Below are positions 7,264 to 54,800 of a stretch of DNA of 54,800 nt, one piece after another. Origin of the DNA: Pseudomonadales bacterium (GTDB lineage Bacteria; Pseudomonadota; Gammaproteobacteria; Pseudomonadales; Pseudohongiellaceae); assembly GCA_022827425.1 (NCBI GenBank), contig JAJDSZ010000033.1:1-54800 (forward strand), read 5' to 3'. The notes under the pieces were generated by a model. It made no database searches, was not told where the DNA came from, and saw only the letters and a program-made list of their open reading frames with translations. The translations under genes were made by a program, and so were the position numbers. How positions within the stretch are numbered: the first letter of the stretch is position 1; each line of letters starts with the position of its first letter.

Positions 7264-8511
7264 TCAGGCGGCGGCCTCCGGGGTGAACGCCACCGGCATG
7301 CGGATCACCGCGTTGAACCAGATGCTGCGGAGCATTTCCGTCTCGCCGTCCGGGCGGATATCGGGAATGCGGGTGTAAATCTCCTTCAGCAGCGCCTGGA
7401 GCTGGTAGCGCGCGAGCCGGGCGCCGAGACAGACATGGGGCCCGGTGCCGAACGCCAGGTGCTTGTTCGCGTTCTCGCGGGTAATGTCGAAGCGGTGCGG
7501 GTCGTCGAATACCGCGGGGTCGCGGTTGGCGGCGGGATAGGAGAGATAGATCTTGTCGCCCTTCGCGACCGCCTGTCCGTTGATCTCGGTGTCTTCCGTC
7601 ACCGTGCGGCGGAACTTGATTACCGGCGGCGAGTAGCGCAACACTTCTTCGACGGCGTTGGGAAGATACCGGTCCAGATCGCTCATGAGCAATTCGAACT
7701 GATCCGGATGCTCGCCCATCAGGCGCAGGAAGTGGACCGTGGTGTTGCGCGTGGTTTCGTGTCCGGCGATGGAGAGGGTCAGGAAGAACATGCCCAGCGA
7801 GTCTTCCGGCAGCTTCGCGCCGTCGACTTCGCCATGGGCCAGACGGCTCATCATGGAATTGTCGGGATTGGCGAGCTTTTCCTTCGCCACCTGCTTGCCG
7901 ATTTCGAGCAGCGCCAGGGGCGCGGAATTGTCGGCGTCGGCGCGGTCTGGATTTTCCGTGTCCGCCGCCTGGTTGCCCAGGGTGAACACGGTTTCGTACA
8001 TGTCTTCGGGTACGCCGAGCAACTTGCAGAAGGTGTAGACCGGCAGTTTCGAGGCCACGTCGAACACGAATTCGCATTCCCCCCGGCCGGCGACTGAATC
8101 GACGATGGCCTTCGCCACCTCGTCGATTTCCGGTCGGAACGCCGCGAGTTCAGCGGCGGAAAAAGGCGGCAGCACGAGTTTCTTCACCGCCAGGTGGTCT
8201 TTCGGCTTCATGCCCATGATATTCGCCCGCTGGTGGGCGAGCTGCTCGGGTTCCAGGTCCCAGATTGTCGGGCCGCCTTCCCAGGAGGAAAACAGCTCCT
8301 GGTTGCGCGACACTTCGGTGATGTCCCGATGGGTGGTAAGCACCCAGAATCCATGGGTCAGGGAAGCGCCGGGCTGGGGATTGCGGTAGCTGTCCACCGG
8401 CGGATTCCAGTGCACGGGATCGTTCTCGCGCCAGGCGTCGAAAAGATGATGCGGCGGGCCGGCGCGGGAGGGAATCAGGTCGGGGTCGATGAGGTTGTCT
8501 GCAACTGGCAT
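7264..8511 (-). CDS. Cytochrome P450 monooxygenase
   Basis: 415 aa soluble bacterial P450. The I-helix oxygen-activation motif AGHETT is present, the ExxR motif appears as EEVLR, and the haem-ligand loop AFGTGPHVCLG places the proximal cysteine at residue 361. Its length and the motif set fit bacterial class I enzymes that take electrons from a ferredoxin. No ferredoxin or reductase gene is adjacent. Wording such as IMGMKPKDHLAVKKLVLPPF resembles steroid- or terpene-hydroxylating CYPs, but the substrate is not readable. It is divergent from the small membrane protein genes that follow, with about 144 bp between. Confidence 0.95.
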   Translation of the reverse strand: MPVADNLIDPDLIPSRAGPPHHLFDAWRENDPVHWNPPVDSYRNPQPGASLTHGFWVLTTHRDITEVSRNQELFSSWEGGPTIWDLEPEQLAHQRANIMGMKPKDHLAVKKLVLPPFSAAELAAFRPEIDEVAKAIVDSVAGRGECEFVFDVASKLPVYTFCKLLGVPEDMYETVFTLGNQAADTENPDRADADNSAPLALLEIGKQVAKEKLANPDNSMMSRLAHGEVDGAKLPEDSLGMFFLTLSIAGHETTRNTTVHFLRLMGEHPDQFELLMSDLDRYLPNAVEEVLRYSPPVIKFRRTVTEDTEINGQAVAKGDKIYLSYPAANRDPAVFDDPHRFDITRENANKHLAFGTGPHVCLGARLARYQLQALLKEIYTRIPDIRPDGETEMLRSIWFNAVIRMPVAFTPEAAA

Positions 8512-9138: not shown

Positions 9139-9627
9139 GTGTTCCGCAACCTCGCCAGCGCACTCGCCGACAGCAGCCTGAACCAGTGGATTTCAGAGAC
9201 GTACTGGCTGTGGCCGGTGCTGGAGATACTCCACTTCATCGGCCTGAGCCTGCTGTTCGGCACCCTGTTGCTTGTCGACCTGCGCCTGCTGGGGTTTCTG
9301 CGAATGCTGGAGGGGGAAATGCTGCGGCGCCTGACGCCGCTGGTCTGGTTCGGCTTTCTGATCAATCTGGCAACGGGTTCGCTGTTCTTCATCGGCGACC
9401 CCCTGCGCTACGCGGTCAATATCGGCTTCCAGTTGAAAATGCTGCTGATCCTGGCGGCGGGCCTCAATCTGCTCGCCTACCAGTTGCAGGTGCGCCCGCT
9501 GCTGTCCGACTGGGGCGCCGGGCCCTCAACCACCCCCATGACCCGAATGGTAGCCTTCGCCTCCCTGCTGATCTGGACCGCCATACTCCTGCTCGGCAGG
9601 CTGATTCCCTACGTGGGTTCGGGTTGA
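9139..9627 (+). CDS. Small integral membrane protein, paralogue of the preceding gene
   Basis: 162 aa from a GTG start directly after the preceding gene. Four hydrophobic segments are visible. Residues 27-50 (VLEILHFIGLSLLFGTLLLVDLR) align with the upstream protein, and both carry GF(L/A)INLATG or GFAVNLLSG in the third segment. The tandem arrangement suggests a heterodimer or a duplication within one operon. A strong hairpin at 9688-9715 follows and also ends the converging TonB receptor gene. Function unknown. Confidence 0.75.
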   Translation: MFRNLASALADSSLNQWISETYWLWPVLEILHFIGLSLLFGTLLLVDLRLLGFLRMLEGEMLRRLTPLVWFGFLINLATGSLFFIGDPLRYAVNIGFQLKMLLILAAGLNLLAYQLQVRPLLSDWGAGPSTTPMTRMVAFASLLIWTAILLLGRLIPYVGSG

Positions 9628-9687
9628 GTGCAATCCATCGTTATCAAGCCAGCGAAAAGGCTGGTGGCAAATGCGAATAATCAAAGC

Positions 9688-9715
9688 AGAAAGGGCTCCC
9701 GAAGGAGCCCTTTCT
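9688..9715. terminator. Bidirectional rho-independent-like terminator
   Basis: A 12-bp stem (AGAAAGGGCTCC with GGAGCCCTTTCT) with a CGAA loop lies between the converging membrane protein genes and TonB receptor 1. The T-tract is short on both sides. The same hairpin, with flanking text, follows TonB receptor 2 at 16831. Confidence 0.8.
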
Positions 9716-9734
9716 GGTTGAGGCGATTTCCGGA

Positions 9735-12698: not shown

Positions 12699-13137
12699 AG
12701 TATCTCTCCATCGAAATTTCGACTGTTGTAAGACCGGAACCGCGCAGCGCGCCGTTGCGATCAGTTTTTGCGGCTTTCCCTGGCAGGGCAGCGTATCCGC
12801 CGAAGCCCGATCAGCTTGAATGGCAAAGCCAGTACGTACTTGAAGATCAGGGATCTGTTTTCAGTGACTTCCCTGTCAGGCCGGACTGTTCCACGACCGA
12901 TTGGGCCTGACCAGACCTTACGGACATACAAACCGCCACGCCGGAGATTTCCGCGCCGACCGGATACTAAAAGGAGTGAATCGGAAGTGTCAAACCAATA
13001 TCGCGATTTCGGTGAAATTGGCTTGTTCGGTGGGCTTTGTCGAGAAGGAAACGTGTCAATTTCACCTCCGAGATACCGCAGATGCTACATTTGGTAACGA
13101 TATTGCGCCACTGCCGAAAGGCTCGCAACCCTCCTGA
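12699..13137. other. Intergenic region upstream of TonB receptor 1
   Basis: About 440 bp between the coiled-coil gene and receptor 1, both on the minus strand. It should hold the receptor promoter and leader. Short plus-strand ORFs cross it, but none looks real. I see no clear operator or riboswitch. Confidence 0.4.
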
Positions 13138-13461
13138 TTACCCGGGCCCGCTCCCGGTCGGCGGCTCGGCAACCGCATCGTAGACTGCGCCACGCGTGAG
13201 CAGGCCCTCGATCCTCGCAAGCCGTTCGCCCTGGGTCCCCATGTCCTTGCGCAGTTCGTCCTTCGTGTCAGAGATTTCCTTGCGCAGTTCGTTCTTCGTA
13301 TCGGAGATTTCCTTGCGCAGGTCGTCCTTCACATCGGAGATTTCCTTGCGCAGTGAAGTCATGTCCCTGTGCCAGCGGGTCTGGAACCAGATGAACCACA
13401 GCAACAACACTACCAGCACCGCCAGGTTCTCGGAAAACGACGTCAACAGTGTATTCAGCAT
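13138..13461 (-). CDS. Membrane-anchored coiled-coil protein with 11-residue repeats
   Basis: 107 aa from the ATG of MLNTLLTSF, chosen because GGGAGGAG sits just upstream; an ATG at 13482 would add seven residues. One transmembrane segment (about residues 9-24, LAVLVVLLLWFIWFQ) is followed by a helical tail made of near-identical 11-residue units of the form LRKEISDxKxE, repeated about four to five times. Eleven-residue periodicity suggests a right-handed or apolipoprotein-like coiled coil. The C-terminus is Gly/Pro rich. No known family is recognised. It is divergent from TonB receptor 2, and part of its 3' end is copied downstream of that receptor. Confidence 0.65.
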   Translation of the reverse strand: MLNTLLTSFSENLAVLVVLLLWFIWFQTRWHRDMTSLRKEISDVKDDLRKEISDTKNELRKEISDTKDELRKDMGTQGERLARIEGLLTRGAVYDAVAEPPTGSGPG

Positions 13462-13496
13462 GCCGGGCTCCTCCCGCCCCATCTATTTCATGGCAT

Positions 13497-13560
13497 AGCC
13501 TAGACAGGTTTACCGGCCCTTGGCAAGTTTTTGGCAAAAATAGTTTCGGGGTCGGAATCC
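13497..13560. repeat. Direct repeat copy A, upstream of TonB receptor 2
   Basis: Positions 13503-13555 match 16898-16950 with about four mismatches (shared cores include CGGCCCTTGGCAAG and TTTTTGGC). The copies bracket TonB receptor 2, pointing to an old duplication or recombination event. Confidence 0.8.
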
Positions 13561-13777
13561 GTTAGGGGAATACTCGCCAAAAATTCCGTGATTGGCGCAA
13601 CAGGCAAAAAAATCGGCAAAATTCGTTGACTCTCCCGGTGGAATGCTGTACTTGGTCCAGCTAGCAGGCTTCGCGGAAGCAGCCGTCCCCGGGCGATTGA
13701 ACGCCGCAACAACAACACAAAGGGGCTTTAGGCGGGTCTTGGCAAGCATCGGGCTCAACACTCAGAGGAGAGTAGTC

Positions 13778-16700
13778 ATGCAGTTCAAGAATCGACACAG
13801 GCGCAAGCTGCTTTGCGCCGCCATCTCACTTTCGCTGCTTCCCGTCGCCGGCATGAGCCAGGCGCAGGACGAGGCCGCGGTGGAGGAAGTTATCGTAACC
13901 GGTTCCTACATCCGGCGGAGCGAGGGCTTCACCCAGGCGTCGTCGGTTACCCAACTGACCGCCGAGGATCTCGAAGCCGAAGGCACCATGAATCTCGGCG
14001 AGGTCGTGCAGAACCTGTCCTTCGTGAATGGGGGCTCATCTGCCATCACCAATACCTTCCAGCGCTCCGGAGCGGATTCCCGCGCCACCTATATCGACCT
14101 GCGCGGCTTGGGTGCGCGGGCCACGCTGACCCTGCTGGACGGCAAGCGGCTGGTGAATCAGAACGTCAATTCGCTGATTCCGACCATCGCCATCCAGCGC
14201 ATGGATATCGTGGCGGATGGCTCCGCGGCGCTGTACGGCAACGAGGCGGTGGCCGGCGTGGTCAACTTCGTCCCCTACCGCAGCTACGAGGGCCTGCGGG
14301 TTGAGACCTTCGCCGAGCAGGATTCCCGCGGCGATTACGACGAACATGCGGTGCAGGTGTTGTGGGGCGAGCAGTTCGGCGACCTGGACCTGGTGCTGGC
14401 TGGCGAGTTTCGCCAGTCCGGCCGGCTCGGCTACGACGAGCGCCCGGTGCTGGCCAACTCCGGTCTCACCTGGTCATCCACCGCACCCGGCAACTATTGG
14501 TTGCCGACTCGCGACGAGAATGGTCAATATACCGGCGACAGGATCAGGGCCAAGGATCCGAATTGCGGCGCCGAACGCGACTACATCACGCCGCACCAGG
14601 TAGCCAGCCGATACGGCTTTGCCCACCCGGACGGCGTCAGTTGCATGTTCGAATACGGCGATAACCACAGCTATCGCAACCCCATCGGCGCCAACAAGTT
14701 CTTCGCCAATGCGACCTGGGACGTCAACGACGATCTGACGCTCTCTCTGCAGGCCTTTACCACACGCTATGGCGAAGTGAGCTACGGTTCGACTTCAAAC
14801 CCCGGCAACCAGCGCGTGCGGGAACTGCCCATCGTTCGCGGCGAAATACCGCACAATCCTTTCCGGGCCATGAATGCCGCGGGGCAGCCTCTGTATGGCG
14901 TAGACCACAATGGCGACGGAATTCCGGACCGGGATCCAAATATGGATCTGAATGGCGATGGCGTGCCCGACCCGATTCTGACCGGAAATGGCGGGCTCGA
15001 CCCCTGGATTCCCCTATACGAAGACGTGGGTATCCGCGGCATCCGGATTCTCAACAAGTCCATGACGCAGATCTCCGCGCACTCTCCCGACAAGGACAAC
15101 CTGTCGGACAATATGGATCGACTGCATCGAATTACCTTCCAGGGTGATTTCAACATCCCCTTCATGGAAGGCTGGCGCGGCATGGCAGCCTATACTTATA
15201 ACTACCGCGAAATCGATTTCATGTCGAACCAGAACTACGATTTCGATGCGATCGTTCAGGGTCTCAGTTGTGATGTGGTAAATGACCGGGACGGCTGCTA
15301 CGTGCCGTTCTATATCACCGATCCATCCCAGGGCACCTACGCCCATGTGCTTGACGCCATCGCGGCGCGGGAACGCGAACAGGAGGAAGACACCCTGGGT
15401 CTGCTGGATATCGTATTCACCGGCGAAGTGCCGCTGTTCGGCTTCGAGTTGCCGGGCGGGCCGGTAGCCGCGGCCGTCGGCTACCAGTACCGTGACGATT
15501 CCTTCAAGGATACGCCCGCCGCCGTGGAGATCAGAGGCGCTCCCTACATCGGATCTTCGACTCCCGAAAACATCAACCACGGCAACCGGGAAGTGGATTC
15601 CTTCTTCGGCGAACTGTCGATTCCCGTGCTGGACGAACTGGTGCTGGAGCTTGCCGTGCGTCGGGAGGAGTTCAGCACCGGCCAGACTTCCACCGACCCC
15701 AAGTACGGCATTACCTATGCGCCGCTGGAGTGGCTGACCCTGCGGGCGACCCAGAGCGAGGCTTTTATCGCGCCGACGCTGCAGCAACTGTATGCGCCGG
15801 AAGTCTGCGGCCTGAGTTCGGTGACCGACCGTTTCGGCCCCTGGGATGCTTTCACCAGCCGCTGCGCCGGAGGCAATCCGAATCTGAAGAACGAAAGTTC
15901 GGAATCGCAACAATTCGGGGTTGACCTGGCCTTCGAAGATTGGGACCTGAGCGTCACCTGGAACAATACCGAGTTCGTCAACCGCATCGTCTCCGCTCCC
16001 GGCCAGTTGATCATGGATATTGATTTCCTCAATTTCCAGGGCTGGTCCGGGTTCAGCGGCACCGGCGAAGGCGCGGGCCAGCAGCCCAGCCTCGACCAGC
16101 TTCGTTCCTGGCTTTCCAGTGGCCTGTCGGACCCGCGCATCGTGCGCGACCCGGAAGACATCCACCAGATCCTGCTGGTGCAAACGGGTAGCTCGAATGC
16201 ATCCCAGGTTGCGGTAACCGCCTATGACATTCAGGGCAATTACAACTTCTCCCTGAACGAGTGGGGGAATTTGCGATTCAACCTGCTGGCCACCTACATC
16301 GACGAGTTCACCTACCAGAACAACCCGACCCAGAACGTGCGCCACGCCGAAGGTCTGTACAACGTGGCCACGGATGCGGCGCCGGCGCTGCCTGAGTTGA
16401 AGGCGAATCTGCGAGCGGTCTGGTCGATGGGCAATCACACGGTGAACGCCACCGTCCATTACATCGATTCGGTGGAGTACAAGACCGAAAGCGAGGATGG
16501 CGACGGCAATCGCACCTACGTCGGCGGACCGGTCTACGGCAGTTCCTTCGGCAATCCCGCCGTAGCCAACAGCACCCACAACGTGGGCCCCTGGATCACC
16601 GAAGCCGGCATTTTCGCCTGGACCGACATGGATATCGCCTACACCTACCGGGGCTTTGAGTTCTGGGATGGTGAAATGGCGTTCACGATCGGCTCGCGCA

Positions 16701-16810
16701 ATGTGTTCGACCGCGAAGCGCAGCGTTCCCCGCTGTTCTCCGGCGTCATCGGCCAGTTGCAGGACCCGCTGGGCCGCATGATCTACGGGCGCGTGGTCTA
16801 CGATTTCTGA
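13778..16810 (+). CDS. TonB-dependent receptor 2
   Basis: 1010 aa. The start is set at the ATG of MQFKNRHRRKLLCAA, preceded by CAGAGGAGAG; an upstream in-frame extension lacks a signal peptide. The architecture is the same as receptor 1: signal peptide ending SQAQ, TonB-box-like EEVIVTGSYIRR, plug with DLRGLGARATLTLLDGKR, a 22-strand-type barrel and terminal VVYDF. A DHNGDGIPDRD type insert at about 376-400 resembles calcium-binding loops. The ligand is unknown. It shares long identical stretches and a terminator with receptor 1 and is flanked by direct repeats at 13503 and 16898, so it is probably one product of a gene duplication followed by inversion. Confidence 0.93.
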   Translation: MQFKNRHRRKLLCAAISLSLLPVAGMSQAQDEAAVEEVIVTGSYIRRSEGFTQASSVTQLTAEDLEAEGTMNLGEVVQNLSFVNGGSSAITNTFQRSGADSRATYIDLRGLGARATLTLLDGKRLVNQNVNSLIPTIAIQRMDIVADGSAALYGNEAVAGVVNFVPYRSYEGLRVETFAEQDSRGDYDEHAVQVLWGEQFGDLDLVLAGEFRQSGRLGYDERPVLANSGLTWSSTAPGNYWLPTRDENGQYTGDRIRAKDPNCGAERDYITPHQVASRYGFAHPDGVSCMFEYGDNHSYRNPIGANKFFANATWDVNDDLTLSLQAFTTRYGEVSYGSTSNPGNQRVRELPIVRGEIPHNPFRAMNAAGQPLYGVDHNGDGIPDRDPNMDLNGDGVPDPILTGNGGLDPWIPLYEDVGIRGIRILNKSMTQISAHSPDKDNLSDNMDRLHRITFQGDFNIPFMEGWRGMAAYTYNYREIDFMSNQNYDFDAIVQGLSCDVVNDRDGCYVPFYITDPSQGTYAHVLDAIAAREREQEEDTLGLLDIVFTGEVPLFGFELPGGPVAAAVGYQYRDDSFKDTPAAVEIRGAPYIGSSTPENINHGNREVDSFFGELSIPVLDELVLELAVRREEFSTGQTSTDPKYGITYAPLEWLTLRATQSEAFIAPTLQQLYAPEVCGLSSVTDRFGPWDAFTSRCAGGNPNLKNESSESQQFGVDLAFEDWDLSVTWNNTEFVNRIVSAPGQLIMDIDFLNFQGWSGFSGTGEGAGQQPSLDQLRSWLSSGLSDPRIVRDPEDIHQILLVQTGSSNASQVAVTAYDIQGNYNFSLNEWGNLRFNLLATYIDEFTYQNNPTQNVRHAEGLYNVATDAAPALPELKANLRAVWSMGNHTVNATVHYIDSVEYKTESEDGDGNRTYVGGPVYGSSFGNPAVANSTHNVGPWITEAGIFAWTDMDIAYTYRGFEFWDGEMAFTIGSRNVFDREAQRSPLFSGVIGQLQDPLGRMIYGRVVYDF

Positions 16811-16830
16811 CCTGGAAATCGCCTCAACCC

Positions 16831-16857
16831 AAAAGGGCTCCCTCGGGAGCCCTTTTT
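16831..16857 (+). terminator. Rho-independent terminator of TonB receptor 2
   Basis: An AAAAGGGCTCCC arm pairs with GGGAGCCCTTTT, followed by a T run. It lies 20 bp after the stop codon. The text from the stop to the hairpin matches that after receptor 1 in reverse orientation. Confidence 0.9.
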
Positions 16858-16874
16858 GTTTGCTGCGCGGGTTT

Positions 16875-16955
16875 CGCCACGCGTGAGCAGGCTCCTGGAC
16901 AGGTTTCCCGGCCCTTGGCAAGTTTTTGGCGAAAACAGTTTCAGGGTCGGCATTT
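16875..16955. repeat. Direct repeat copy B with internal deletion
   Basis: 16875-16892 is identical to 13188-13205, inside the 3' part of the coiled-coil gene. It is joined almost directly to 16898-16950, which matches 13503-13555. The roughly 300 bp that hold the rest of the coiled-coil gene in copy A are missing here. Confidence 0.75.
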
Positions 16956-17126
16956 CGCATTTGCCGCAGTGCTGGTCGCTTGTGGGAAGGGGTTTTGGGG
17001 AGAATTGTTTGTCATATCCTCGTTGGACGTAATATCCTCGCAGAAGTTCTTCCGCCTGAAACCGCCGTCAGGCCTTGGGCTTCGCCTGTCGGTAAACGGC
17101 AATCCGGTTGCCGGGGGAGTGCGCCC

Positions 17127-17564
17127 GTGGAGAATGACAGCGCCATTCGTGAACTCGTCAGCGCCTGTGTTGGACAGACGGGCGCGCCGGTCACCGCATT
17201 GCGGAAAATCATGGCGACCCATGGGCATATCACCGACGAGCACGTTGGCATCGTTGCCGATGTCTTCAATCTGAGCCGGGCGGACGTTCGCGGGATTGTC
17301 TCCTTCTATTCCGATTTCAGCACCACGCCCAGGGGGCGCAAGCACATCCGCATCTGCCAGGCGGAAGCCTGCCAGGCGGTGGGCTGCCGCGGGCTTACCC
17401 GGGAAGTTTCCGCAGCGCTTGGCCTCGGGCTTGGCGAGACCAGCGAGGATCTTGCGGTAAGCCTCGAAGGCGTCTACTGCCTGGGGCTGTGCGCCTCGGG
17501 GCCGAGTGCCATGGTCAATGAACGCATCATTGCCCACGCCACCCGTGAGGATTTGCTGCAATGA
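17127..17564 (+). CDS. fdsG: NAD-dependent formate dehydrogenase gamma subunit (NuoE-like)
   Basis: 145 aa from a GTG start (17127) with GGGGGAG upstream; an upstream open extension does not resemble the family. It is a thioredoxin-like [2Fe-2S] subunit: cluster ligands are C77 and C82 (CQAEAC) and C118 and C122 (CLGLC), the family spacing. FdsG passes electrons between the FdsB flavin/iron-sulfur subunit and the rest of the soluble molybdenum formate dehydrogenase, which oxidises formate to CO2 with NAD+. The stop overlaps the fdsB ATG by 4 bp. First gene of the fdsGBA-fdhD-mobA operon. Confidence 0.93.
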   Translation: MENDSAIRELVSACVGQTGAPVTALRKIMATHGHITDEHVGIVADVFNLSRADVRGIVSFYSDFSTTPRGRKHIRICQAEACQAVGCRGLTREVSAALGLGLGETSEDLAVSLEGVYCLGLCASGPSAMVNERIIAHATREDLLQ

Positions 17565-18976
17565 GCCGCGCCCTGGTTCCCAACGAAACCCTTGCCAACG
17601 CCCTGGGCGCCAATGAACTTGCCCGGGAGCTTGGGGCACGAGGTTACCAGGTGGTTCGCAGCGGCGGCTTCGGGCTCGCCTGGCTGGAGCCCATGCTGGT
17701 GATTGACGGGCAGGCCTATGGGCCGGTGCGGGACCTGGACGCGCTGGAAGAAGTCGCCCTTGGCCCGGTGAATGAAATCCCGGCGATCGCCCGCCAGCGG
17801 CGGATCATTTTCGACCGCTGCGGCCGGGGCAACCCCATGGACTACGACCCGGCCTGGCTGCTCGACCAACTGCGGCGCTCCCCACGGGAAATCATTGCCG
17901 AAATCCGCGCCAGCGGCCTGCGCGGGCGCGGCGGAGCGGGCTTCCCGGCCCATATCAAGTGGCAAACCGTTCACGACACCCCGGCGCCGCAGAAATACAT
18001 CGTCGTCAATGCCGACGAGGGCGACTCGGGCACTTTCGCCGACCGGCTCATCATGGAAGGCGACCCGTTCCGCCTGATCGAAGGCATGCTGCTTGCGGGC
18101 CATGCCGTCGGGGCGGACAAGGGCATCGTTTATCTGCGTTCGGAATATCCGCTGGCGGCGCGGATTTTCGACCAGGCCATCGCCAGAGCCAGGGAACTCG
18201 GCCTGCTGGAAAACTTTGCGCTTGAGCTCTTCATCGGCGCCGGGGCCTATATCTGCGGCGAAGAGACCTCGCTGCTGGAGAGCCTGGAAGGCAGGCGCGG
18301 CGAAGTCCGCAGCAAGCCCCCGGTGCCTGCCGTCGCCGGCCTGTTCGGGCAGCCGACCCTGGTGCATAATGTCATTTCGCTCTGTTCGGTGCCGGGCATA
18401 CTCAGGATGGGGGGCGCCGCCTATGCCGAAATCGGCGTGGGCCCATCCACCGGCAGCATGACATTCCAGCTAGCGGGCAATATCCAGCGCGGCGGGCTGT
18501 ATGAGTTGCCCTTCGGTCTCAGCATGCGCGAGTTGGTGGAAGACTGGGGCGGCGGCACCCGCAGCGGGCGGCCTTTCGGCGCGGTGCAGCTGGGCGGCCC
18601 GCTTGGCGCCTATCTGTTCGAGGACGCCCTCGATACGCCACTCACATACGAAGCCACGGCAAAACTCGGCGCCGGCATCGGCCACGGCGGGCTGGTGGTG
18701 TTTGACGACACCATGGACCGGGTGCGGCAGGCCCATTTCGCATTCGCTTTTTGCGCCCACGAATCCTGCGGCAAATGCACACCCTGCCGCATCGGCGCGG
18801 TGCGCGGCAAGGAAACTATGGAAGCGCTGGCCGCAGGGGAGTACACTGAAGACAAGATCGCAGTCATTGCGGAACTTTGCGATGTGATGGAAGAGGCCAG
18901 CCTGTGCCAGATGGGAGGCATGACTCCCATTCCGGTGCGCAGCGCCCTCGGTATCGCGCCAGGTATCAGCGAATGA
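17561..18976 (+). CDS. fdsB: NAD-dependent formate dehydrogenase beta subunit (NuoF-like)
   Basis: 471 aa. An N-terminal degenerate thioredoxin-like part (about 1-85) is followed by the NuoF-like core. The Gly-rich NADH/FMN site RGRGGAGFP is at 121-129, NADEGDSGTF follows at about 150, and a [4Fe-4S] cluster is bound by C403, C406, C409 (ESCGKCTPC) and C449. FdsB accepts electrons from the formate-oxidising subunit and reduces NAD+ at FMN. It is somewhat shorter than many FdsB proteins, mainly at the N-terminus. The last bases overlap the fdsA start as ATGA. Assignment is confident because of the fdsG/fdsA context. Confidence 0.94.
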   Translation: MSRALVPNETLANALGANELARELGARGYQVVRSGGFGLAWLEPMLVIDGQAYGPVRDLDALEEVALGPVNEIPAIARQRRIIFDRCGRGNPMDYDPAWLLDQLRRSPREIIAEIRASGLRGRGGAGFPAHIKWQTVHDTPAPQKYIVVNADEGDSGTFADRLIMEGDPFRLIEGMLLAGHAVGADKGIVYLRSEYPLAARIFDQAIARARELGLLENFALELFIGAGAYICGEETSLLESLEGRRGEVRSKPPVPAVAGLFGQPTLVHNVISLCSVPGILRMGGAAYAEIGVGPSTGSMTFQLAGNIQRGGLYELPFGLSMRELVEDWGGGTRSGRPFGAVQLGGPLGAYLFEDALDTPLTYEATAKLGAGIGHGGLVVFDDTMDRVRQAHFAFAFCAHESCGKCTPCRIGAVRGKETMEALAAGEYTEDKIAVIAELCDVMEEASLCQMGGMTPIPVRSALGIAPGISE

Positions 18977-21810
18977 GACTCGACGACCTCGATTACGGCA
19001 CCCCGGCCTCGAACAGCGAAGAGCGGGTAAGTCTCAGCATTGACGGCGCCTCCATCGAAGTGCCGGCGGGCACCTCGATCATGCGCGCCGCCATCGAGGC
19101 CGGCATTCCCGTGCCGAAACTTTGCGCCTCGGACAATCTGGACGCCTACGGCTCCTGCCGGCTGTGCCTCGTGGAAATCGAGGGTCGGCGCGGCGTCCAC
19201 GCCTCCTGCACAGAGCCCGTGCGCGACGGCATGCGGGTGCGGACCCAGAATGAGAAGATCGCCCGGCTGCGCCGCGGCGTCATGGAACTGTATATCTCCG
19301 ACCATCCCCTGGATTGCCTCACCTGCAGCGCGAATGGCGATTGTGAACTGCAGGACATGGCGGGCGCCGTGGGCCTGCGGGAAGTCCGCTACGGGGAAGG
19401 CGAAAACCACCTCAGCGCCGCCATCGACGACTCCAACCCCTATTTCAGCTTCGACCCGGGCAAGTGCATCGTCTGCTCGCGCTGCGTGCGCGCCTGCGGC
19501 GAAGTCCAGGGCACCCACGCCCTCACCATCGACGGGCGCGGCTTCGATTCCAGCGTGAAGACCGGCGCGGCGGACTTCTTCGGCTCAGAATGCGTTTCCT
19601 GCGGCGCCTGCGTGCAGGCCTGCCCCACGGCCACGCTGATGGAGAAGTCGGTGATCGAAGAAGGCGTGCCCGACCGCAGCGTCCGCACCACCTGCGCCTA
19701 TTGCGGCGTGGGCTGCTCCTTCCGCGCCGAACTCAAGGGCGATCAGGTGGTGCGGATGGTGCCCGACAAGCTGGGCAAGGCCAATCACGGCCATTCCTGC
19801 GTCAAGGGCAGATTCGCCTGGGGCTACGCCAACCACCCGGAGCGGGTGGCAAAACCCCTGCTGCGCGACCGGATCAGCGACCCCTGGCGCGAAGTTTCCT
19901 GGGAGGAAGCCATTGCCGAGGCCGCCGCGCGCCTCAAGTCGGTCCAGGCGGAACACGGCCTGCACTCCATCGGCGCCGTCACCTCGGCGCGCTGCACCAA
20001 TGAAGAGATTTTCACCGTGCAGAAGATGGTGCGCACCGCCTTCGGCAGCAACAATGTGGACACCTGCGCCCGGGTCTGCCATTCACCCACCGGCTACGGT
20101 CTCAAGCAGACTTATGGCACTTCGGCGGGCACCCAGCATTTCGATTCGGTGATGCAGGCCGACGCCATCATGGTGATCGGCGCCAATCCCACCGACGGCC
20201 ATCCGGTTTTCGCCTCCCAACTCAAGCGCAGGCTGCGCCAGGGCGCCCGGCTGATCGTCATGGACCCGCGGCGCATCGACCTGGTGCGCTCGCCCCACAT
20301 CGAGGCGGAATCCCACCTGCCGCTGCTGCCGGGCACCAATGTGCCCATGATGAACGCTTTTGCCCATGTGGTGGTCACCGAGGGATTTGTTGACGAGGCA
20401 TTCGTCGCAGAGCGCTGCGACGGGGAATCTTTCGCGGCCTGGCGTGAATTCGCGGCGCAGCCGGAGAATTCGCCGGAAGCCGTGGCCGAGGTCGCCGGTG
20501 TGCCCGCCGCGGACATCCGCGGCGCCGCCCGGCTTTACGCTTCGGTGAAGAACGCCGCCATCTACTACGGCCTCGGGGTTACCGAACACAGTCAGGGCTC
20601 CACCATGGTCATGGCCATGGCCAATCTCGCCATGGCCACGGGCAATATCGGTCGGGAAGGCGTGGGGGTCAGTCCCCTGCGCGGCCAGAACAACGTCCAG
20701 GGCTCCTGCGACATGGGCTCGTTCCCGCACGAACTTTCGGGCTATCAGCAAATCGTTGAGGCCGGGGTGCGGGAAAAGTACGAGCAGGCCTGGCGGGTGA
20801 AGCTGCTGCCCGAACCCGGCATGCGCATTCCCAACATGCTCGACGCCGCCCGGGGCGGCAGCTTCAAGGGCATCTTCATTCAGGGAGAAGATCTGGCCCA
20901 GTCCGACCCCAACACCCAGGGGGTGGAAGCTGCCCTTGGCAATATGGACTGCGTCATCGTGCAGGATCTGTTCCTCAATGAGACCGCCAAGTTCGCCCAT
21001 ATCTTCCTGCCCGGCACCTCCTTCCTGGAAAAGGACGGCACCTTCACCAATGCCGAGCGGCGCATCAACCGGGTGCGCCAGGTGATGCAACCGAAATCCG
21101 GCAAGTCCGAATGGGAGGCGGTGCAGGAGCTTTCCGCGGCCCTGGGCTATCCCATGAACTATCAGTGCGCCGCCGACATCATGGCGGAAGTCGCAAGCCT
21201 GACGCCCGACTTCGCCGGCGTCAGCTTCGACAAGCTCGACCGGCTCGGCAGCGTGCAATGGCCCTGCAATGATGGCGCCCCGGAAGGCACCCCCATCATG
21301 CACGAGGCGCAATTCGTGCGCGGCAAGGGCCGTTTCATGCTCACCGACTACCAGCCCACCGATGAGCGCACGAGCCGCAAGTTTCCCCTGCTGCTGACCA
21401 CCGGGCGCATTCTGCATCAGTACAACGTGGGCACCCAGACCCGGCGTACCCGGAATCTCGAATGGCTGGCGGAAGACCAGCTTGAAATCCATCCCAGCGA
21501 CGCGGAACTGCGCGGGGTGCGCACGGGAGACCGGGTTTCCATCACCAGCCGCATGGGGGAGATCATGCTCAAGGCCACGGTGACCACCCGGGTGGCTCCC
21601 GGAGTGGTTTACACCACCTTCCACCACCCGGCCACCGGCACCAATGTGGTCACCACCGACCTGAGCGACTGGGCCACCAATTGCCCCGAATACAAGGTGA
21701 CCGCGGTGGAGATTCGCCCCGCCAATCACCTTTCGGACTGGCAGCGGGAATTCCGGCAGCGGGACGCCCGCCAGCGCGAATTGCAACCGGCGGAACCCGC
21801 CGCCACATGA
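18973..21810 (+). CDS. fdsA: NAD-dependent formate dehydrogenase alpha subunit, molybdenum-containing
   Basis: 945 aa from the ATG that overlaps the fdsB stop. It carries an N-terminal [2Fe-2S] ferredoxin domain (C51, C62, C65, C79) and a His-Cys [4Fe-4S] site (H111, C115, C118, C124). Two ferredoxin clusters follow (C165/168/171/175 and C207/210/213/217), then the molybdopterin-domain cluster (C241, C244, C248, C276). The bis-MGD catalytic domain has the Mo-ligand cysteine C369 next to H370 in DTCARVCHSP, as in Rhodobacter FdsA (Cys386-His387). It oxidises formate to CO2 in the cytoplasm. A C-terminal molydopterin dinucleotide-binding domain includes LLLTTGRILHQYN. All expected ligands are intact. 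Confidence 0.96.
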   Translation: MRLDDLDYGTPASNSEERVSLSIDGASIEVPAGTSIMRAAIEAGIPVPKLCASDNLDAYGSCRLCLVEIEGRRGVHASCTEPVRDGMRVRTQNEKIARLRRGVMELYISDHPLDCLTCSANGDCELQDMAGAVGLREVRYGEGENHLSAAIDDSNPYFSFDPGKCIVCSRCVRACGEVQGTHALTIDGRGFDSSVKTGAADFFGSECVSCGACVQACPTATLMEKSVIEEGVPDRSVRTTCAYCGVGCSFRAELKGDQVVRMVPDKLGKANHGHSCVKGRFAWGYANHPERVAKPLLRDRISDPWREVSWEEAIAEAAARLKSVQAEHGLHSIGAVTSARCTNEEIFTVQKMVRTAFGSNNVDTCARVCHSPTGYGLKQTYGTSAGTQHFDSVMQADAIMVIGANPTDGHPVFASQLKRRLRQGARLIVMDPRRIDLVRSPHIEAESHLPLLPGTNVPMMNAFAHVVVTEGFVDEAFVAERCDGESFAAWREFAAQPENSPEAVAEVAGVPAADIRGAARLYASVKNAAIYYGLGVTEHSQGSTMVMAMANLAMATGNIGREGVGVSPLRGQNNVQGSCDMGSFPHELSGYQQIVEAGVREKYEQAWRVKLLPEPGMRIPNMLDAARGGSFKGIFIQGEDLAQSDPNTQGVEAALGNMDCVIVQDLFLNETAKFAHIFLPGTSFLEKDGTFTNAERRINRVRQVMQPKSGKSEWEAVQELSAALGYPMNYQCAADIMAEVASLTPDFAGVSFDKLDRLGSVQWPCNDGAPEGTPIMHEAQFVRGKGRFMLTDYQPTDERTSRKFPLLLTTGRILHQYNVGTQTRRTRNLEWLAEDQLEIHPSDAELRGVRTGDRVSITSRMGEIMLKATVTTRVAPGVVYTTFHHPATGTNVVTTDLSDWATNCPEYKVTAVEIRPANHLSDWQREFRQRDARQRELQPAEPAAT

Positions 21811-48900: not shown

Positions 48901-49119
48901 TCAAGGCCGGGGTTGGCTTTCTTGCCGCAACTCCTCAAAGTCGCGGTTGTATTCTTCCCAGGTGGTTCGGTACTGGCCGCGGCAGTATTCCTGCTGGGAA
49001 ATGGGGAGGTTTTCGCAATTCTGGATGCGATTGTCGCGGATGGCGTTATAGACCTGATGGTAGCTGCAGTTCGCAACGGCGAAAGGCAGGACCAAGTCAA
49101 GTGGAATGGCGCGGTTCAT
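48901..49119 (-). CDS. Small putative lipoprotein
   Basis: 72 aa from the ATG of [13 protein letters not shown]; a longer frame exists to 49188. A short hydrophobic leader ends in VANCS, a possible but atypical lipobox. The rest ([23 protein letters not shown], then [15 protein letters not shown]) resembles small Gammaproteobacterial lipoproteins with a YExLRxRQ..C...P..E...C pattern. No function known. Divergent from nthA. Confidence 0.6.
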
Positions 49120-49160
49120 GCTGGCATGATAACGGAAAAGAGCAGCGGACGGAGCGGAAC

Positions 49161-49772
49161 ATGTCCCGGAACCACATCCATTTGCCATCGGAAACCGAAT
49201 TGCGCGCCAAGGCGCTGGAAAGTCTGCTGGTGGAGAAGGGGTTGGTCAAACCGGCAACGCTCGATGCGATTATCGAGACTTATCAGAACCAGGTTGGCCC
49301 CCGCAATGGCGCGCATCTGGTTGCGCTGGCCTGGGCCGACGCGGACTTTCGCCAGCGGCTGCTTGCTGATGCTTCCGCAGCCGCTGCCGAAATTGGCTGC
49401 TTCGGGCGGCAGGGCGAACATCTGCAAGCCCTGGAGAACACGCCGGTAGCGCACAATCTCGTGGTTTGCACACTTTGTTCCTGCTATCCCTGGACCGTGC
49501 TCGGCCTGCCGCCGGCATGGTACAAGTCCGCTCCGTATCGCTCCCGCGCCGTCAGCGAGCCCCGCGCCGTGCTGGCGGAATTCGGCACCGAGGTATCCGA
49601 AGAGGTGGAAATCCGCGTATGGGACTCGACCTCTGAAATGCGCTACCTCGTGCTGCCCATGCGACCGCCGGGAACCGATGGCTGGAGCGCGGAACAATTG
49701 TCCCGGCTCGTGACCCGCAATGCCATGATCGGCGTGGAACAGGCCTTGTTGCCCGGGCAATTGACATCATGA
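49161..49772 (+). CDS. nthA: Nitrile hydratase alpha subunit, cobalt type
   Basis: 203 aa. Nitrile hydratase converts nitriles to amides. The metal-binding motif VCTLCSC is at C103, C106 and C108 with S107; Thr in the second position marks the cobalt (rather than iron) type. The typical downstream motif [23 protein letters not shown] is intact, and the N-terminal [15 protein letters not shown] is canonical. The ATG follows GGAG. It overlaps the beta subunit start as ATGA. No amidase or cobalt transporter is adjacent. Confidence 0.95.
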
Positions 49773-50494
49773 GGGGAGGCCACGATCTCGGCGGGCGGCA
49801 GGGCTTTGGTCCGATCCGCCCCGAGCCGGAATCCGCCGAGCCGGTGTTCCACAGCGAGTGGGAGCGGCGGGTATTCGCCATGACCCTGGCCACCGGCATG
49901 CTGGGCCAGTGGAATATCGACCAGTCGCGCCATGCCCGGGAGCGCCAGCACCCGGCGGACTATCTGGCCCAGACCTACTACGAAAACTGGCTTGCGGGAA
50001 CCGAAAAGCTGCTGCTCGAAGCGGGCCTGCTGAGCGCGGAAGAACTCGAACAGGCCATGGCGCGGGCCGGGGAACATCAGGCAAGCCGGGATGGACAGGG
50101 AGCCAGGGCAGTATCGAAGCGGGAGATGCGCATACCCGGCCCGGACGATGCCCGCAAGATTCTCCGCAGCGGCGGCCCCGCATCGCGGGAGTCAAGCAGC
50201 CCACCGCGCTTCGCTCCCGGAGAGCAAGTGCTGCTGCGCCGCAAGCTGACTTCCGGCCATACCCGCGCGCCGGCCTACGCCCAGGGCTGTTCTGGCTGGA
50301 TTCGCGCCTGCCTCGGCGGCCATGTCTTTCCCGACGCCAACAGCGCAGGCGAGGCAATCGCCCATCATCTGTACAGCGTGTGCTTTGATTCTCATGCGCT
50401 GTGGGGAGCCGATGCCGAGTCCTTCACGGTGCTGATCGATCTGTGGGAGCCCTATCTGGAGGCTTTCGATGCGGAATCCGACCGCTGTGGGTAA
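49769..50494 (+). CDS. nthB: Nitrile hydratase beta subunit
   Basis: 241 aa. The N-terminal domain begins [12 protein letters not shown], followed by [13 protein letters not shown] and [13 protein letters not shown]. The C-terminal SH3-like barrel has [24 protein letters not shown] and a final FDSHALWG motif. Both halves are in one chain, which separates it from thiocyanate hydrolase, where they are split. It forms the active alpha-beta unit with NthA. Confidence 0.94.
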
Positions 50495-50810
50495 GGGAGA
50501 AGAACCGCCTTTCCGGGCGCCCTGGGAGGCCCAGGTTTTCGCGCTGATCTGCGCCTTGCGGGATTCCGGCGAACTGCAGCCCGGGGAATGGTCCGCCAGG
50601 CTCGGCGAGGAGATTCGGCTTGCCGGATTGCGGGGCGACCCGGACCTTGGCGATACCTACTACGCCCACTGCCTTGCCGCGCTGGAAAAGTGGCTGATTG
50701 CGTCGAACCGGGCCAACCGAGCGGAGGTCAGCGAATACCTTGCCGGCTGGCGCGATGCCTATCGGAATACACCGCACGGCCTTGACAGCCCTCAGGGCAG
50801 CGGCGGATAA
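50469..50810 (+). CDS. Nitrile hydratase accessory protein (P14K/NhlE-like)
   Basis: 113 aa, overlapping nthB by 26 bp. Its sequence (PFRAPWEAQVFALICALRDSGELQPGEWSARLGEEI, then YYAHCLAALEKWLI) resembles the N-terminal helical domain of the beta subunit. This is the known form of the small activators that swap with alpha subunit and deliver cobalt. The stop overlaps the converging MBL gene by 19 bp. It should be needed for metal loading of NthA. Confidence 0.88.
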   Translation: MRNPTAVGKGEEPPFRAPWEAQVFALICALRDSGELQPGEWSARLGEEIRLAGLRGDPDLGDTYYAHCLAALEKWLIASNRANRAEVSEYLAGWRDAYRNTPHGLDSPQGSGG

Positions 50811-51580
50811 AACTCGCCGCGGCGCACTTCAATCCCGCTGTCCGCAAGTTCCCCTTCGAAAGCATCCAGGGTTTCCGCTATCGTCATGCCGTTGATCTGG
50901 CCGCTATCCTCGAATTCGGGGTTGGCCGCCCGCCGGGCGTAACCCTGATTGTAGTGATATGGATAGACCACATCCGGGTCGAGCAGGCGGGCGCATTCCG
51001 CCGCGGCGGATGGAGTCATCCGACCCACGGGTATATTCATGGGCATGAAGGCCACATCGATGTCGCCCAGCGCCCTGACTTCATCCACGCACTCGGTAAC
51101 GCCGGCAAAGAAAAAGCGCAGGCCGCCCAGGGACACCACGTAACCATTGGCGTCCCCCTTGGGATGCTCCGGTGCGCCAGGGATGATGTCGTAGGCGGCG
51201 ATGGCTTCGATTTTGACGCCGGCCAGCGTAGCCTCCTCGCCATTGTTCAGCACCATGCCATGGGGCAACCGTTGCCGGCTGTTGGCGGGCATGATGATTT
51301 GGGTCCCGGCATCGCTGAGGGAAGCGATTGCCTCCGGGTCCAGATGGTGGCCCGGATTGTCGGTGATCAGAATCAGATCGGCTGTGCGCAGCCCGGCGAG
51401 TCCCGCGACTCCCCATGGGTCCACGGTAACGACCGTATCGCCGTGCACAAGCTGGGCACCGTTATGGGTGATTGCCGTGATTTCGATTTCGCCTTCCGGC
51501 CCCGTCACGCTGTCAGCCAGCGCGGGCGCCTGCCAGAGGGCGAGGCATAGCGCCAGGGCAGATGGGAGATGCCTGTTCAT
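50792..51580 (-). CDS. Exported MBL-fold metal-dependent hydrolase-like protein
   Basis: 262 aa with a signal peptide ending ALADS. The fold matches UlaG-like MBL proteins (NGAQLVHGDTVVTVDPWG and YPYHYNQGY). The usual HxHxDH zinc motif is altered to TDNPGHHLD, with Asn and Pro where the first conserved residues are expected. It may be inactive or bind metal differently. Coupled to the NHL gene by ATGA, so the two exported proteins probably act together. Substrate unknown. Confidence 0.8.
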   Translation of the reverse strand: MNRHLPSALALCLALWQAPALADSVTGPEGEIEITAITHNGAQLVHGDTVVTVDPWGVAGLAGLRTADLILITDNPGHHLDPEAIASLSDAGTQIIMPANSRQRLPHGMVLNNGEEATLAGVKIEAIAAYDIIPGAPEHPKGDANGYVVSLGGLRFFFAGVTECVDEVRALGDIDVAFMPMNIPVGRMTPSAAAECARLLDPDVVYPYHYNQGYARRAANPEFEDSGQINGMTIAETLDAFEGELADSGIEVRRGEFYPPLP

Positions 51581-52626
51581 GGCCGCACCCGCACATATTT
51601 CTCAAAGCGTTGCCGACCGACCTGGCCAGCATAGATATTGCCCTCGGCATCGCTGGCGAGGAACTCGATGCCGCTGCCGTTGGGGATCTCGTAGTCGGGA
51701 ATGAACTCGGTCACATAACCGGTTCTCGCATCCCCGATGCGGATGCCGCGCTCCCAGCCGCGGTTCCACTGCTCGCCGGACATGCCGTCGGCAACAAGAA
51801 TCCTGTCGTTTTCATCGATCCACATGCCGCTGGGGCGGCCGAACTGGGTCCAGATGTCGAGCACTTCGCCTTCCTGGGACAGAATCTGGATGCGGTTGTT
51901 GCCCCGGTCGGCGACGAAGATCCTGCCCCGGGAGTCCATCTTGAGGTCGTGCGGGTCGTTGAATCGACCGGTTTCGCGGCTGGTGTCCTCGACGCCGCCG
52001 CCGAGTTGCAACAGCAGTTCTCCCTCGGCGGAGAATTTCATTACGCGATTGTTGCCGCCGCGATGGCCATCGGCGATCCAGAGCTCGCCATTGGGCGCCG
52101 CCAGCACCGCGGCTGGCCCGTTGAAATGTGTTGCGTCTTCCCCCGGCGTTCCCGCCTCGCCCAGCCGCATCAGCACTTCGCCGTCCTGATTGAGCTGGAT
52201 GACCTGGTGCCCCATGCCGCGCTCCATGCCCGCCTCGCCCCGGGCGTCGCCGTCCGGCGCGCCTTCGGTAATCCAGAAATTGCCGTTGGCGTCCATATCG
52301 AAGCCGTGGGGCCAGGCAAATAGCCCCGCGCCGATGCTTTTGACGGTATTGCCTTCCCTGTCGAGCTTGTGCAGGGGATGCAGGTCGGACCCGGCGCACT
52401 GGTTGGCGCCGCAGCGCTCGAGAATCCACAAGTGTTCGCCGTCCGGGTCGGGGTGAACTCCGGTCACCACGCCCATGGTGCGGCCACCGGGCAATTCGCC
52501 CCAGTGGTAGACGGCCTGATAGGGGTTGTCAGCCGCTACGGCGAAACCGACCAGGGAAAGCGCCGGCGGCAAGGCGAGAATTGCGGCGAGCAGAAAACGA
52601 ATCGGGCCTGAACCGGAATTTGACAT
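51577..52626 (-). CDS. NHL-repeat beta-propeller protein, amidating-lyase-like
   Basis: 349 aa from the ATG of MSNSGSGPIRF with GAGGG upstream; a longer frame exists to 52776. A signal peptide ends GFAVAAD. NHL-type blades follow: HLWILERCGANQCAGSD, PHGFDMDANGNFWITEGA, FNGPAAVLAAPNGELWIADGH, FNDPHDLKMDSRGRIFVADRGNNRIQILS. This resembles the peptidyl-alpha-hydroxyglycine alpha-amidating lyase propeller family. The enzyme activity is not proved. Operon with the MBL gene. Confidence 0.82.
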   Translation of the reverse strand: MSNSGSGPIRFLLAAILALPPALSLVGFAVAADNPYQAVYHWGELPGGRTMGVVTGVHPDPDGEHLWILERCGANQCAGSDLHPLHKLDREGNTVKSIGAGLFAWPHGFDMDANGNFWITEGAPDGDARGEAGMERGMGHQVIQLNQDGEVLMRLGEAGTPGEDATHFNGPAAVLAAPNGELWIADGHRGGNNRVMKFSAEGELLLQLGGGVEDTSRETGRFNDPHDLKMDSRGRIFVADRGNNRIQILSQEGEVLDIWTQFGRPSGMWIDENDRILVADGMSGEQWNRGWERGIRIGDARTGYVTEFIPDYEIPNGSGIEFLASDAEGNIYAGQVGRQRFEKYVRVRP

Positions 52627-52756
52627 GGCTGCCCTCGGCATGGATATGGTTCGGAGACATCGAGGATACACCGAAGTCCCGCCCCAGTGGAATCCCGCGG
52701 AAATTCCGGCGGAGCGACGCTGCTGGTACTGAATCGGATACGTAAGGTGCGGCGAT

Positions 52757-53053
52757 GTGGCGATGTCGACCGTCAATGTGGCGGAAGTGTCGGCCTGCCT
52801 GTTTCAGGAAGGTTGGGACGAGGAAGAAGTCGAGTCGGTGTTCGCTCAACTGGGTGTTTCAGTCATCCCGTTCGATGAGGCCGCGGCAATATCCAGCGGC
52901 AGTCTCCGTATGGCAAGCCGGCAGTTTGGTCTCGGCCTTGGAGACCCGGCTTTCCTTGCCGTTGCAATCGACCGGAAATGCCCGGCCCTCACAGCCGACC
53001 GAGCTTGGGCGCAACTGGGTCTGCCCGGCCTGGAAATCAGATGCATCCGCTGA
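52757..53053 (+). pseudogene. N-terminally truncated VapC-like PIN toxin
   Basis: About 98 codons from a GTG. The sequence AMSTVNVAEV, LFQEGWDEEEVE, VIPFDEAAA, GLSLGD-like GLGLGDPAFLA and ALTADRAWAQL match VapC from its first third onward. The first ~40 residues, including the initial catalytic Asp, are missing; the upstream text in frame has a stop and no homology. No VapB antitoxin is visible. It is probably a decayed toxin. Confidence 0.65.
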
Positions 53054-53200
53054 GCGGCTGACGTTATCCATGCCCCACTCAATTCAATGCTCATCCAGTT
53101 TTCAAAGAGGCCTCCGTGCTCCTCATTCCCGCCATGTTCGGCATGGTGTATTATCGACGCGCTGCGGCGCACTTCCCTCCACTGAGACATTCGACCCGAA

Positions 53201-53617
53201 ATGAGTAAGGTGGATTCCATAGTAAAAACCGTTCTTTCCACCTTCCCGGCAACTGTGGCGGTATACCGCTTCGGCAGTTGGGGGACCGTCTGGCAAAACT
53301 CCGAGAGCGATCTTGACCTTGCCATTTTGCTGCCCCATGAGTTTGCGGTTCGCGCACATCAGACAGTCTGGATCAATCTCAACGCGGAAATCGCTCAAGC
53401 CTCGCGAACAGATCGGGTTGACTTGATCGATCTGCGAAAAGCCAAGACCGACTTTCAAGCCGAAGTGTTGCGCACGGGGAAGGTGCTGTATTGCCAGGAC
53501 GACGATGCGCGGCTCGAATTCGAAGCCCTCGTCCTCAACATGCACCAGGACTTGAACCGCCGCCGAGCCGGTCTCCGTACGGACATTATGAAGCGAGGCA
53601 GGATATTGCCAGCATGA
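53201..53617 (+). CDS. mntA: MntA-type nucleotidyltransferase antitoxin
   Basis: 138 aa with the minimal nucleotidyltransferase motif GSx10DxD: G25-S26, then D37 and D39 (FGSWGTVWQNSESDLDLAIL). MntA antitoxins add AMP to the HEPN toxin HepT and so block its RNase activity. The hepT gene normally overlaps mntA as ATGA. Here an ATG does overlap the stop (53614), but only about 11 codons follow before the CRISPR array. The module is therefore solitary or broken. Confidence 0.85.
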   Translation: MSKVDSIVKTVLSTFPATVAVYRFGSWGTVWQNSESDLDLAILLPHEFAVRAHQTVWINLNAEIAQASRTDRVDLIDLRKAKTDFQAEVLRTGKVLYCQDDDARLEFEALVLNMHQDLNRRRAGLRTDIMKRGRILPA

Positions 53618-53646
53618 GCGAGGAATTAATCATATCGTTCGTACAG

Positions 53647-54800
53647 GCTTCAATGAGGCCGCCGCCCGAGGGCGGCGGATACCGGTGGCCAGAAACACGC
53701 GGGTCCCGGCGATCCTTCGCTTCAATGAGGCCGCCGCCCGAGGGCGGCGGATATGAAACATCCCGGTTTTCGCCACGGGGTGGATTTCGCTGCTTCAATG
53801 AGGCCGCCGCCCGAGGGCGGCGGATATCTAAGCACAATGTGGCAACTGAGCGAAGACGAAAGGCTTCAATGAGGCCGCCGCCCGAGGGCGGCGGATATTC
53901 GTACAGTCGCATCGTCACGATCAGCGTTCCCGACGCTTCAATGAGGCCGCCGCCCGAGGGCGGCGGATATACGCAGGAGCCGTGGCAGACGGCAATGAGG
54001 GAGGCATGGCTTCAATGAGGCCGCCGCCCGAGGGCGGCGGATATCAGCACGGCGGCGACATTGTCGGCGGCGGGAGTGGAGGCTTCATTGAGGCCGCCGC
54101 CCGAGGGCGGCGGATATTGCCGCCGGCCGAGGGCTTGCCGCCCGTGTGGGAGACGCTTCAATGAGGCCGCCGCCCGAGGGCGGCGGATATAAGGCACAAA
54201 TAGCAATACCGGAGACAATACTGCATGCTTCAATGAGGCCGCCGCCCGAGGGCGGCGGATATCTGCAATGTCTGGAGAAGCTACCAACCAAAAGCCTGGG
54301 CTTCAATGAGGCCGCCGCCCGAGGGCGGCGGATATCCCGGCCCGGACGCTGAAATACTTGCGGCAGTCGGCGGCTTCAATGAGGCCGCCGCCCGAGGGCG
54401 GCGGATATGCGTTCGCCAGCGGGCGCTCCATTTATTCGATGACGTCGCTTCAATGAGGCCGCCGCCCGAGGGCGGCGGATATACGAGACGCTTATCGAGA
54501 CCTGGCGCGCATCGCCGGGGCTTCAATGAGGCCGCCGCCCGAGGGCGGCGGATATTTTGCCTCGAATCTGTCGCCGACCCGCGGCCGGGGGCTTCAATGA
54601 GGCCGCCGCCCGAGGGCGGCGGATATCTGGCCGGCGAGCGCGGTGTCCTTGAGCGCGACCAGCTTCAATGAGGCCGCCGCCCGAGGGCGGCGGATATTTT
54701 CACGGATCTGTCACTATTTTTGGGGCATGCTGGCCAGCTTCAATGAGGCCGCCGCCCGAGGGCGGCGGATATGCCACGGCGTCCAGGTCACGCCGGGCTC
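53647..54800 (-). CRISPR. CRISPR array, at least 16 repeats, continues past the window
   Basis: Sixteen 36-nt repeats (starts 53647, 53719, 53792, 53863, 53935, 54009, 54082, 54155, 54227, 54300, 54373, 54447, 54520, 54591, 54662 and 54737) separated by unique spacers of 35-39 nt; a further spacer is cut at 54800. On the plus strand the repeat starts GCTTCAATGAGG, holds an 8-bp CCGCCGCC/GGCGGCGG stem with loop CGAG, and ends GGATAT. Fourteen copies are identical; the first ends in C and the seventh has one A-to-T change. In reverse complement it ends CATTGAAGC, like the 8-nt ATTGAAAC/ATTGAAGC handle of type I and III crRNAs, so leftward transcription is likely. No cas gene is in view. Confidence 0.98.

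Follow-up and report, generated by a model that had tools for sequence, protein, structure and literature searches.

Type I-G has been described as the least well understood of the type I CRISPR subtypes (PMC9638904), and among the systems closest to the locus analysed here are those of Thioalkalivibrio sulfidiphilus and of the myxobacteria. According to the accessible part of PMC9638904, the T. sulfidiphilus system has Cas4/1, Cas2, Csb2, Cas7, and Cas3, as does the locus studied here, and toxin-antitoxin genes lie between its effector and adaptation genes, a position taken here by AbiE genes; the same source states a TTN PAM for I-G and reports that Csb2 cuts 4 nt past the stem of the repeat, leaving an 8-nt handle. 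The repeat of L053 (Thioalkalivibrio sulfidiphilus ALJ17) has the same final 12 nt, CCTCATTGAAGC, as the array described below. The two systems differ in the large subunit, which is Csx17 in T. sulfidiphilus (PMC9638904; genome of L053) and is taken here as a short protein of the Cas8u1 type, and in the order of the effector genes, which is csb1-csb2-cas3-cas8 here. In the myxobacterial I-G system, as far as the accessible part of PMC11237760 goes, the effector order (csb1-csb2-cas3-cas8u1) is the same as here and the 36-bp repeats end in the same tail (-TTGAAGC); the host is different and the adaptation module is not conserved there. Finally, the replacement of effector genes beside an intact adaptation module, including replacement within subtypes, has already been described (PMC5704561, likewise accessible in part): as here, cas4/1-cas2 and the flanks are conserved while close relatives have differing large subunits, the hosts being others and the phenomenon otherwise the same. 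A search of the main text of PMC12669027 for six I-G terms gave no match.

The window (i.e., the whole stretch of 54,800 nucleotides that was analysed, which is also the whole of contig C29) ends in a CRISPR array. With a probability of roughly 0.95, judged from sequence comparison, we regard this stretch as the older, trailer-side portion of a type I-G array, whose cas operon would be the one found on another contig of the same assembly, C45.

The Array and Its Flank

The initial annotation had described at least 16 near-perfect 36-nt repeats separated by unique spacers of 35–39 nt, and this description holds. The final 1.15 kb of the window contains 16 copies of the repeat (starting at 53647, 53719, 53792, 53863, 53935, 54009, 54082, 54155, 54227, 54300, 54373, 54447, 54520, 54591, 54662, and 54737), of which 14 are identical and two carry a single-base change; the 15 full spacers (36, 37, 35, 36, 38, 37, 37, 36, 37, 37, 38, 37, 35, 35, and 39 nt, in order) include no duplicate, and the maximal identity between any two, in an ungapped comparison starting at base 1, is 42%. 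Regular direct repeats and unique spacers of similar length are thus those of a CRISPR array; a further, truncated spacer ends at 54800, where contig C29 itself ends. In the genome to which the window belongs (130 contigs totalling 2.86 Mb; at a completeness of 94.5%, absences from the assembly are not absolute), a pattern search finds the repeat only on C29, 16 times and on one strand, and no further copy with up to 3 mismatches occurs elsewhere in the assembly; the reversed pattern, as a control, has no match in this genome, which argues that the array is not a product of chance. The RNA fold of the repeat, in crRNA sense, contains the 8-bp stem that had been predicted, at nt 5–24, followed by 12 nt.

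Of the two variant repeats, the seventh (54082–54117) has a single internal change, CTTCATTG instead of CTTCAATG, while the leftmost reads ...GATAC instead of ...GATAT at its last plus-strand base. In crRNA sense this leftmost variant begins GTATCC, as do the repeats of relatives L015, L017, L018, and L019, so that it may preserve an earlier state of the repeat and not be the outcome of decay. Three open reading frames crossing the array (53491–54018, 53586–53918, and 54306–54671) were set aside as the repeat read in frame, and an Rfam search of the window returned one tRNA and nothing else. The coordinates of the features are collected in Table 1.

Table 1. Features of the array, of its flank (C29, the window), and of the cas operon on C45.
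Feature	Contig	Position	Strand	Remarks
Left flank, in synteny with the flank on the trailer side of the L016 array	C29	49041–52743	.	91–95% identical; basis for orienting the array
MntA-type antitoxin gene (type VII toxin-antitoxin)	C29	53201–53617	+	flanks the trailer end; outside the CRISPR system
CRISPR array, 16 repeats and 15 full spacers	C29	53647–54772	-	crRNA-sense repeat ATATCCGCCGCCCTCGGGCGGCGGCCTCATTGAAGC; read leftward
Trailer-end repeat	C29	53647–53682	-	first crRNA-sense base G, not A (GTATCC...)
Spacer resembling a coding stretch for the zinc ribbon of an IS1595-family transposase	C29	54336–54372	-	
16th spacer	C29	54773–54800	-	28 nt left, cut by the contig end
csb1	C45	2694–3902		
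csb2	C45	3902–6247		
cas3g	C45	6189–9263		
Cas3-extension gene	C45	9263–10201		
AbiEi	C45	10715–11296		146.2 bits, just below the NCBIfam cut-off of 150
AbiEii fragment	C45	11320–11781		153 aa, corresponds to the C-terminal region of the family (148–279 of 282)
cas4g/cas1g	C45	11906–13687		
cas2	C45	13691–14029		

As to the flank, a partner gene of the MntA-type antitoxin could start at 53614 (ATGA overlap), but the frame from there enters the first repeat after 11 codons; the array edge may thus be where the presumed toxin gene was lost. Genes for the alpha and beta subunits of a nitrile hydratase lie at 49101–50494, within the conserved part of the flank.

The cas Operon on C45

The initial annotation expected leader and cas genes beyond the right edge of the window and suggested a search for cas1/cas2 and effector genes; the search did recover an I-G set, on the separate contig C45 (14,122 bp) rather than contiguous with the array. 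No cas1 gene lies to the left of the array: Cas1 matches in this genome are found on two contigs only, C45 and C104, and the only cas1 that is not of type I-E is the Cas4-Cas1 fusion on C45 (Cas4g/Cas1g, NF049935, 802.6 bits against a cut-off of 560). On C45, Csb1/Cas7g (TIGR02570), Csb2 (a Cas5-Cas6 fusion, TIGR02165), Cas3g (TIGR02621), the Cas3-extension protein (NF049934, cut-off 65), Cas4/1, and Cas2 each score above the NCBIfam cut-off, and the operon, cas7g-csb2-cas3g-cas8g followed farther on by cas4/1-cas2, has what defines type I-G: the Cas4-Cas1 fusion, Csb1, Csb2, Cas3g and, by profile, Cas8g. The AbiEii gene, a fragment here, is represented in L016 by a copy of 317 aa. The Csb2 of C45, 781 aa against a model of 492 positions, is matched in two stretches, which suggests that it carries a long insertion.

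The type had been left open between I-G, there associated with csx17, and III-B. A type III-B or type I-B affiliation of the array is extremely improbable: its sole argument is the resemblance of the repeat tail, pointed out in the initial annotation, while cmr2 (TIGR02577) and csm1 (TIGR02578) have no match in this genome (positive in 4/14 and 7/14 controls, respectively), and the only other Cas1 found is of type I-E and goes with different repeats. Indeed, C104 has the type I-E genes for Cas3 (cut by the contig start), Cse1, Cse2, Cas7, Cas5, Cas6e, Cas1e, and Cas2e and repeats of its own, GTGTTCCCC...; these repeats occur at 9434–9950 and 12673–12762 of C104 (locus L013), about 2.8 kb apart, downstream of the I-E cas genes.

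Orientation of the Array and Its Probable Junction with C45

C45 stops 93 nt past cas2, without any repeat, and these last 93 nt can be aligned to the leader sequences of five relatives. The most informative of the relatives is L016 (JAJDVS010000103.1, Pseudomonadales MAG jk18x22bins.60), where the identical repeat occurs 31 times and everything is found on one contig, in the order cas4/1-cas2, leader (about 200 nt), the 31 repeats (array at 12326–14548) and then the counterpart of the flank of the window. Positions 7399–12211 of L016 match C45 10276–14116 in three pieces (85–95%), the cas4/1-cas2 DNA being 94% identical, and positions 15131–19134, beyond the array, match positions 49041–52743 of the window in two pieces (91–95%); the stretch 52744–53646 of the window, MntA gene included, has no counterpart in this alignment. 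Exact spacers common to the array described here (16) and that of L016 (30) are not found, and L016 differs in its effector cassette, which is of the csb3 kind and lies on the opposite strand. The first 90 nt of the L016 leader are found in the present genome at the end of C45, whereas its remainder has nothing convincing there (best match 19 nt, E 0.011).

Since C45 ends inside a leader and L016 is contiguous over flank, array, leader, and cas genes, it is very probable that C29 and C45 are neighbours, their right ends turned towards one another across a gap; the assembly lacks this join, with some 108 nt of leader plus some number of further repeats. The same contiguous order puts the leader and cas genes beyond the right edge of the window, with the array running leftward from there, in agreement with the initial annotation. 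The repeat has the TTGAAGC end expected of I-G, and array and cas2, adjacent in L016, would probably be so here too.

Given the unassembled junction, an alternative is an orphan or second array with I-G repeats, not joined to C45, whose leader would then open another array, now lost; in myxobacteria, scattered I-G arrays away from cas genes have in fact been described (accessible part of PMC11237760). This is nevertheless very improbable, because the same left flank bounds a cas-linked array in L016 and the assembly has no other copy of the repeat with up to 3 mismatches, and the I-G array continuous with C45 remains the reading adopted here.

A survey of 81 Cas4/1 loci (C45 and the best 80 of 158 in the genome collection) places this arrangement in a wider frame. 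An array is present within 1500 nt past cas2 in 70 of the 81, at a distance of 201–385 nt from the last cas2 codon in the alignment (201–241 nt in 68 loci; the outliers are L047, 294 nt, and L039, 385 nt). In cas2 sense, TTGAAGC or ATTGAAG is found in the repeats of 67/70 loci, the other three being strings cut short by the search within the same tail; the whole CCTCATTGAAGC is found in 57/70, and the reversed tail in none of the 70. Of the 11 loci without array, 9 have less than 400 nt of sequence past cas2, and the other two (L024 and L026) have no array in the 1500 nt past cas2. Two loci stand out by origin, L019 (VYFM01000437.1; Cas4/1 90% identical, in a MAG titled Poribacteria) and L023 (JAAXGO010000134.1; 71% identical, in a MAG titled Rhodothermales), which reflect either inter-phylum transfer or mis-binned contigs.

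The Probable Large Subunit and a Proposed Exchange of Effector Cassettes

The csx17 gene with which the initial annotation had associated type I-G was not recovered: the Csx17 profile (TIGR04113) has no match in this genome, in a comparison in which no control genome was positive, while it is positive in 6 of the 10 genomes behind the loci of relatives. The place of the large subunit would be taken by the Cas3-extension protein, which PADLOC labels as Cas8g effector_LS (PDLC01514, 314.9 bits). A structure model was built for its homologue from L067 (11 sequences; pLDDT 79, pTM 0.85), and in a Foldseek search the sole PDB match below E 0.001 is the type I-G effector 8b2x (E 2.4e-5; TM 0.51 by query length, 14% identity, rmsd 10.4), the matched chain of 649 residues being taken to be Csx17; the next match is a type I-B Cascade chain (E 0.012). 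A sequence profile also ranks the Csx17 of 8b2x first, but with E 0.087 over 45 residues, and the N-termini of the three kinds of large subunit look alike by eye. The Cas3-extension protein is taken as the I-G large subunit, of the short Cas8u1 type and not Csx17; from gene order and the PADLOC label, it is probably the cas8u1 product named in the accessible part of PMC11237760, which would thus correspond to NF049934/PDLC01514.

The distribution of the large subunits among the 81 loci was surveyed by tblastn with checked queries: a Csx17 relative is found in 33 loci, a relative of the Cas3-extension protein in 13 and both in none; 18 loci have csb1, csb2 or cas3, yet neither large subunit, and 17 have none of Csx17, Cas3-extension, csb1, csb2, and cas3 within the available stretch. 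The L015 genome counts against strict exclusion at the genome level, as it has csx17 and, elsewhere, a sub-cut-off match to the Cas3-extension model (36 bits, cut-off 65). Beside the same cas4/1-cas2, L015 has cas3-csx17-csb1-csb2, a cassette matched by L018 at 81–82%, and the cassette of L016 consists of Cas3g, a csb3-type (GSU0052-type) Cas8g, and Cas7g. L015 matches C45 on either side of the cassette (1352–2574, 96%; 11867–14117, 94%), and between these flanks the similarity is limited to short stretches within C45 5190–5346.

We lean, with some reserve, towards a reading in which one genus keeps one module of leader, repeat, and Cas4/1-Cas2, behind which three I-G effector cassettes (Cas8u1, Csx17, and Csb3) have been exchanged; the crRNAs read by the three Cascades would then differ little in handle and hairpin, and Cas8u1 would be a half-size homologue of Csx17, making for an I-G effector smaller than the solved one.

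Spacer Targets

Searches of phage, plasmid, viral-contig, and genus-genome sequences gave no confident protospacer and no PAM. The whole array has no match at E 1 among 50,697 phage records and, among 72,556 plasmid records, 6 matches at E 0.3 only, taken as chance; none of 7 of the 15 full spacers, sought as exact stretches of 23–32 nt, occurs in viral contigs, nor does the repeat itself. With the array as query, matches are found in 5/61 (own genome included) and 7/84 genomes of the genus, arrays or repeat-bearing matches being those of G000, G030, G087, G018, G021, and G114 (in the last, 33 repeat bases and 4 spacer bases); a 26-nt match spanning spacer and repeat in G030 (contig C83) was dismissed as chance. 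In the own genome the array itself is the sole match among the candidates scored (7/31 and 5/31), a partial scoring of first-look candidates by which weaker targets, self-targets included, may be missed. The only plausible target is that of the spacer with a resemblance to IS1595, which is identical in 31/37 and 30/37 nt to sites in two genomes of the same genus, G104 and G018 (the G018 copy was assigned to the family by Pfam, the G104 copy by its similar translation); both sites are flanked by CTG, not TTN, and they are probably not the true protospacers.

Proposed Function and Significance

As suggested by the I-G literature, a leader just past 54800 would drive transcription leftward, and the Cas6-like domain of Csb2 would cleave the repeats 4 nt downstream of their hairpins to produce the 8-nt handle AUUGAAGC, since the stem is followed by 12 nt. 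The backbone onto which the crRNAs are loaded would consist of Cas7g, joined by Csb2 and the short Cas8g (Cas8u1), and the loaded complex would recruit Cas3g for the degradation of matching DNA; Cas4/1 and Cas2 would insert new spacers next to the leader, beyond the right edge of the window. We infer the activity of the array, since the C29–C45 join is unassembled, the target searches gave no protospacer with its PAM and 2 of the 81 loci are arrayless.

The array is an ordinary one of type I-G, the older end of the CRISPR immune memory of this bacterium. The use of the finding lies mostly in annotation, in that an I-G locus whose parts lie on two contigs is completed; moreover, close relatives that combine one adaptation module with three large subunits are matched material on the contribution of the large subunit in type I-G.
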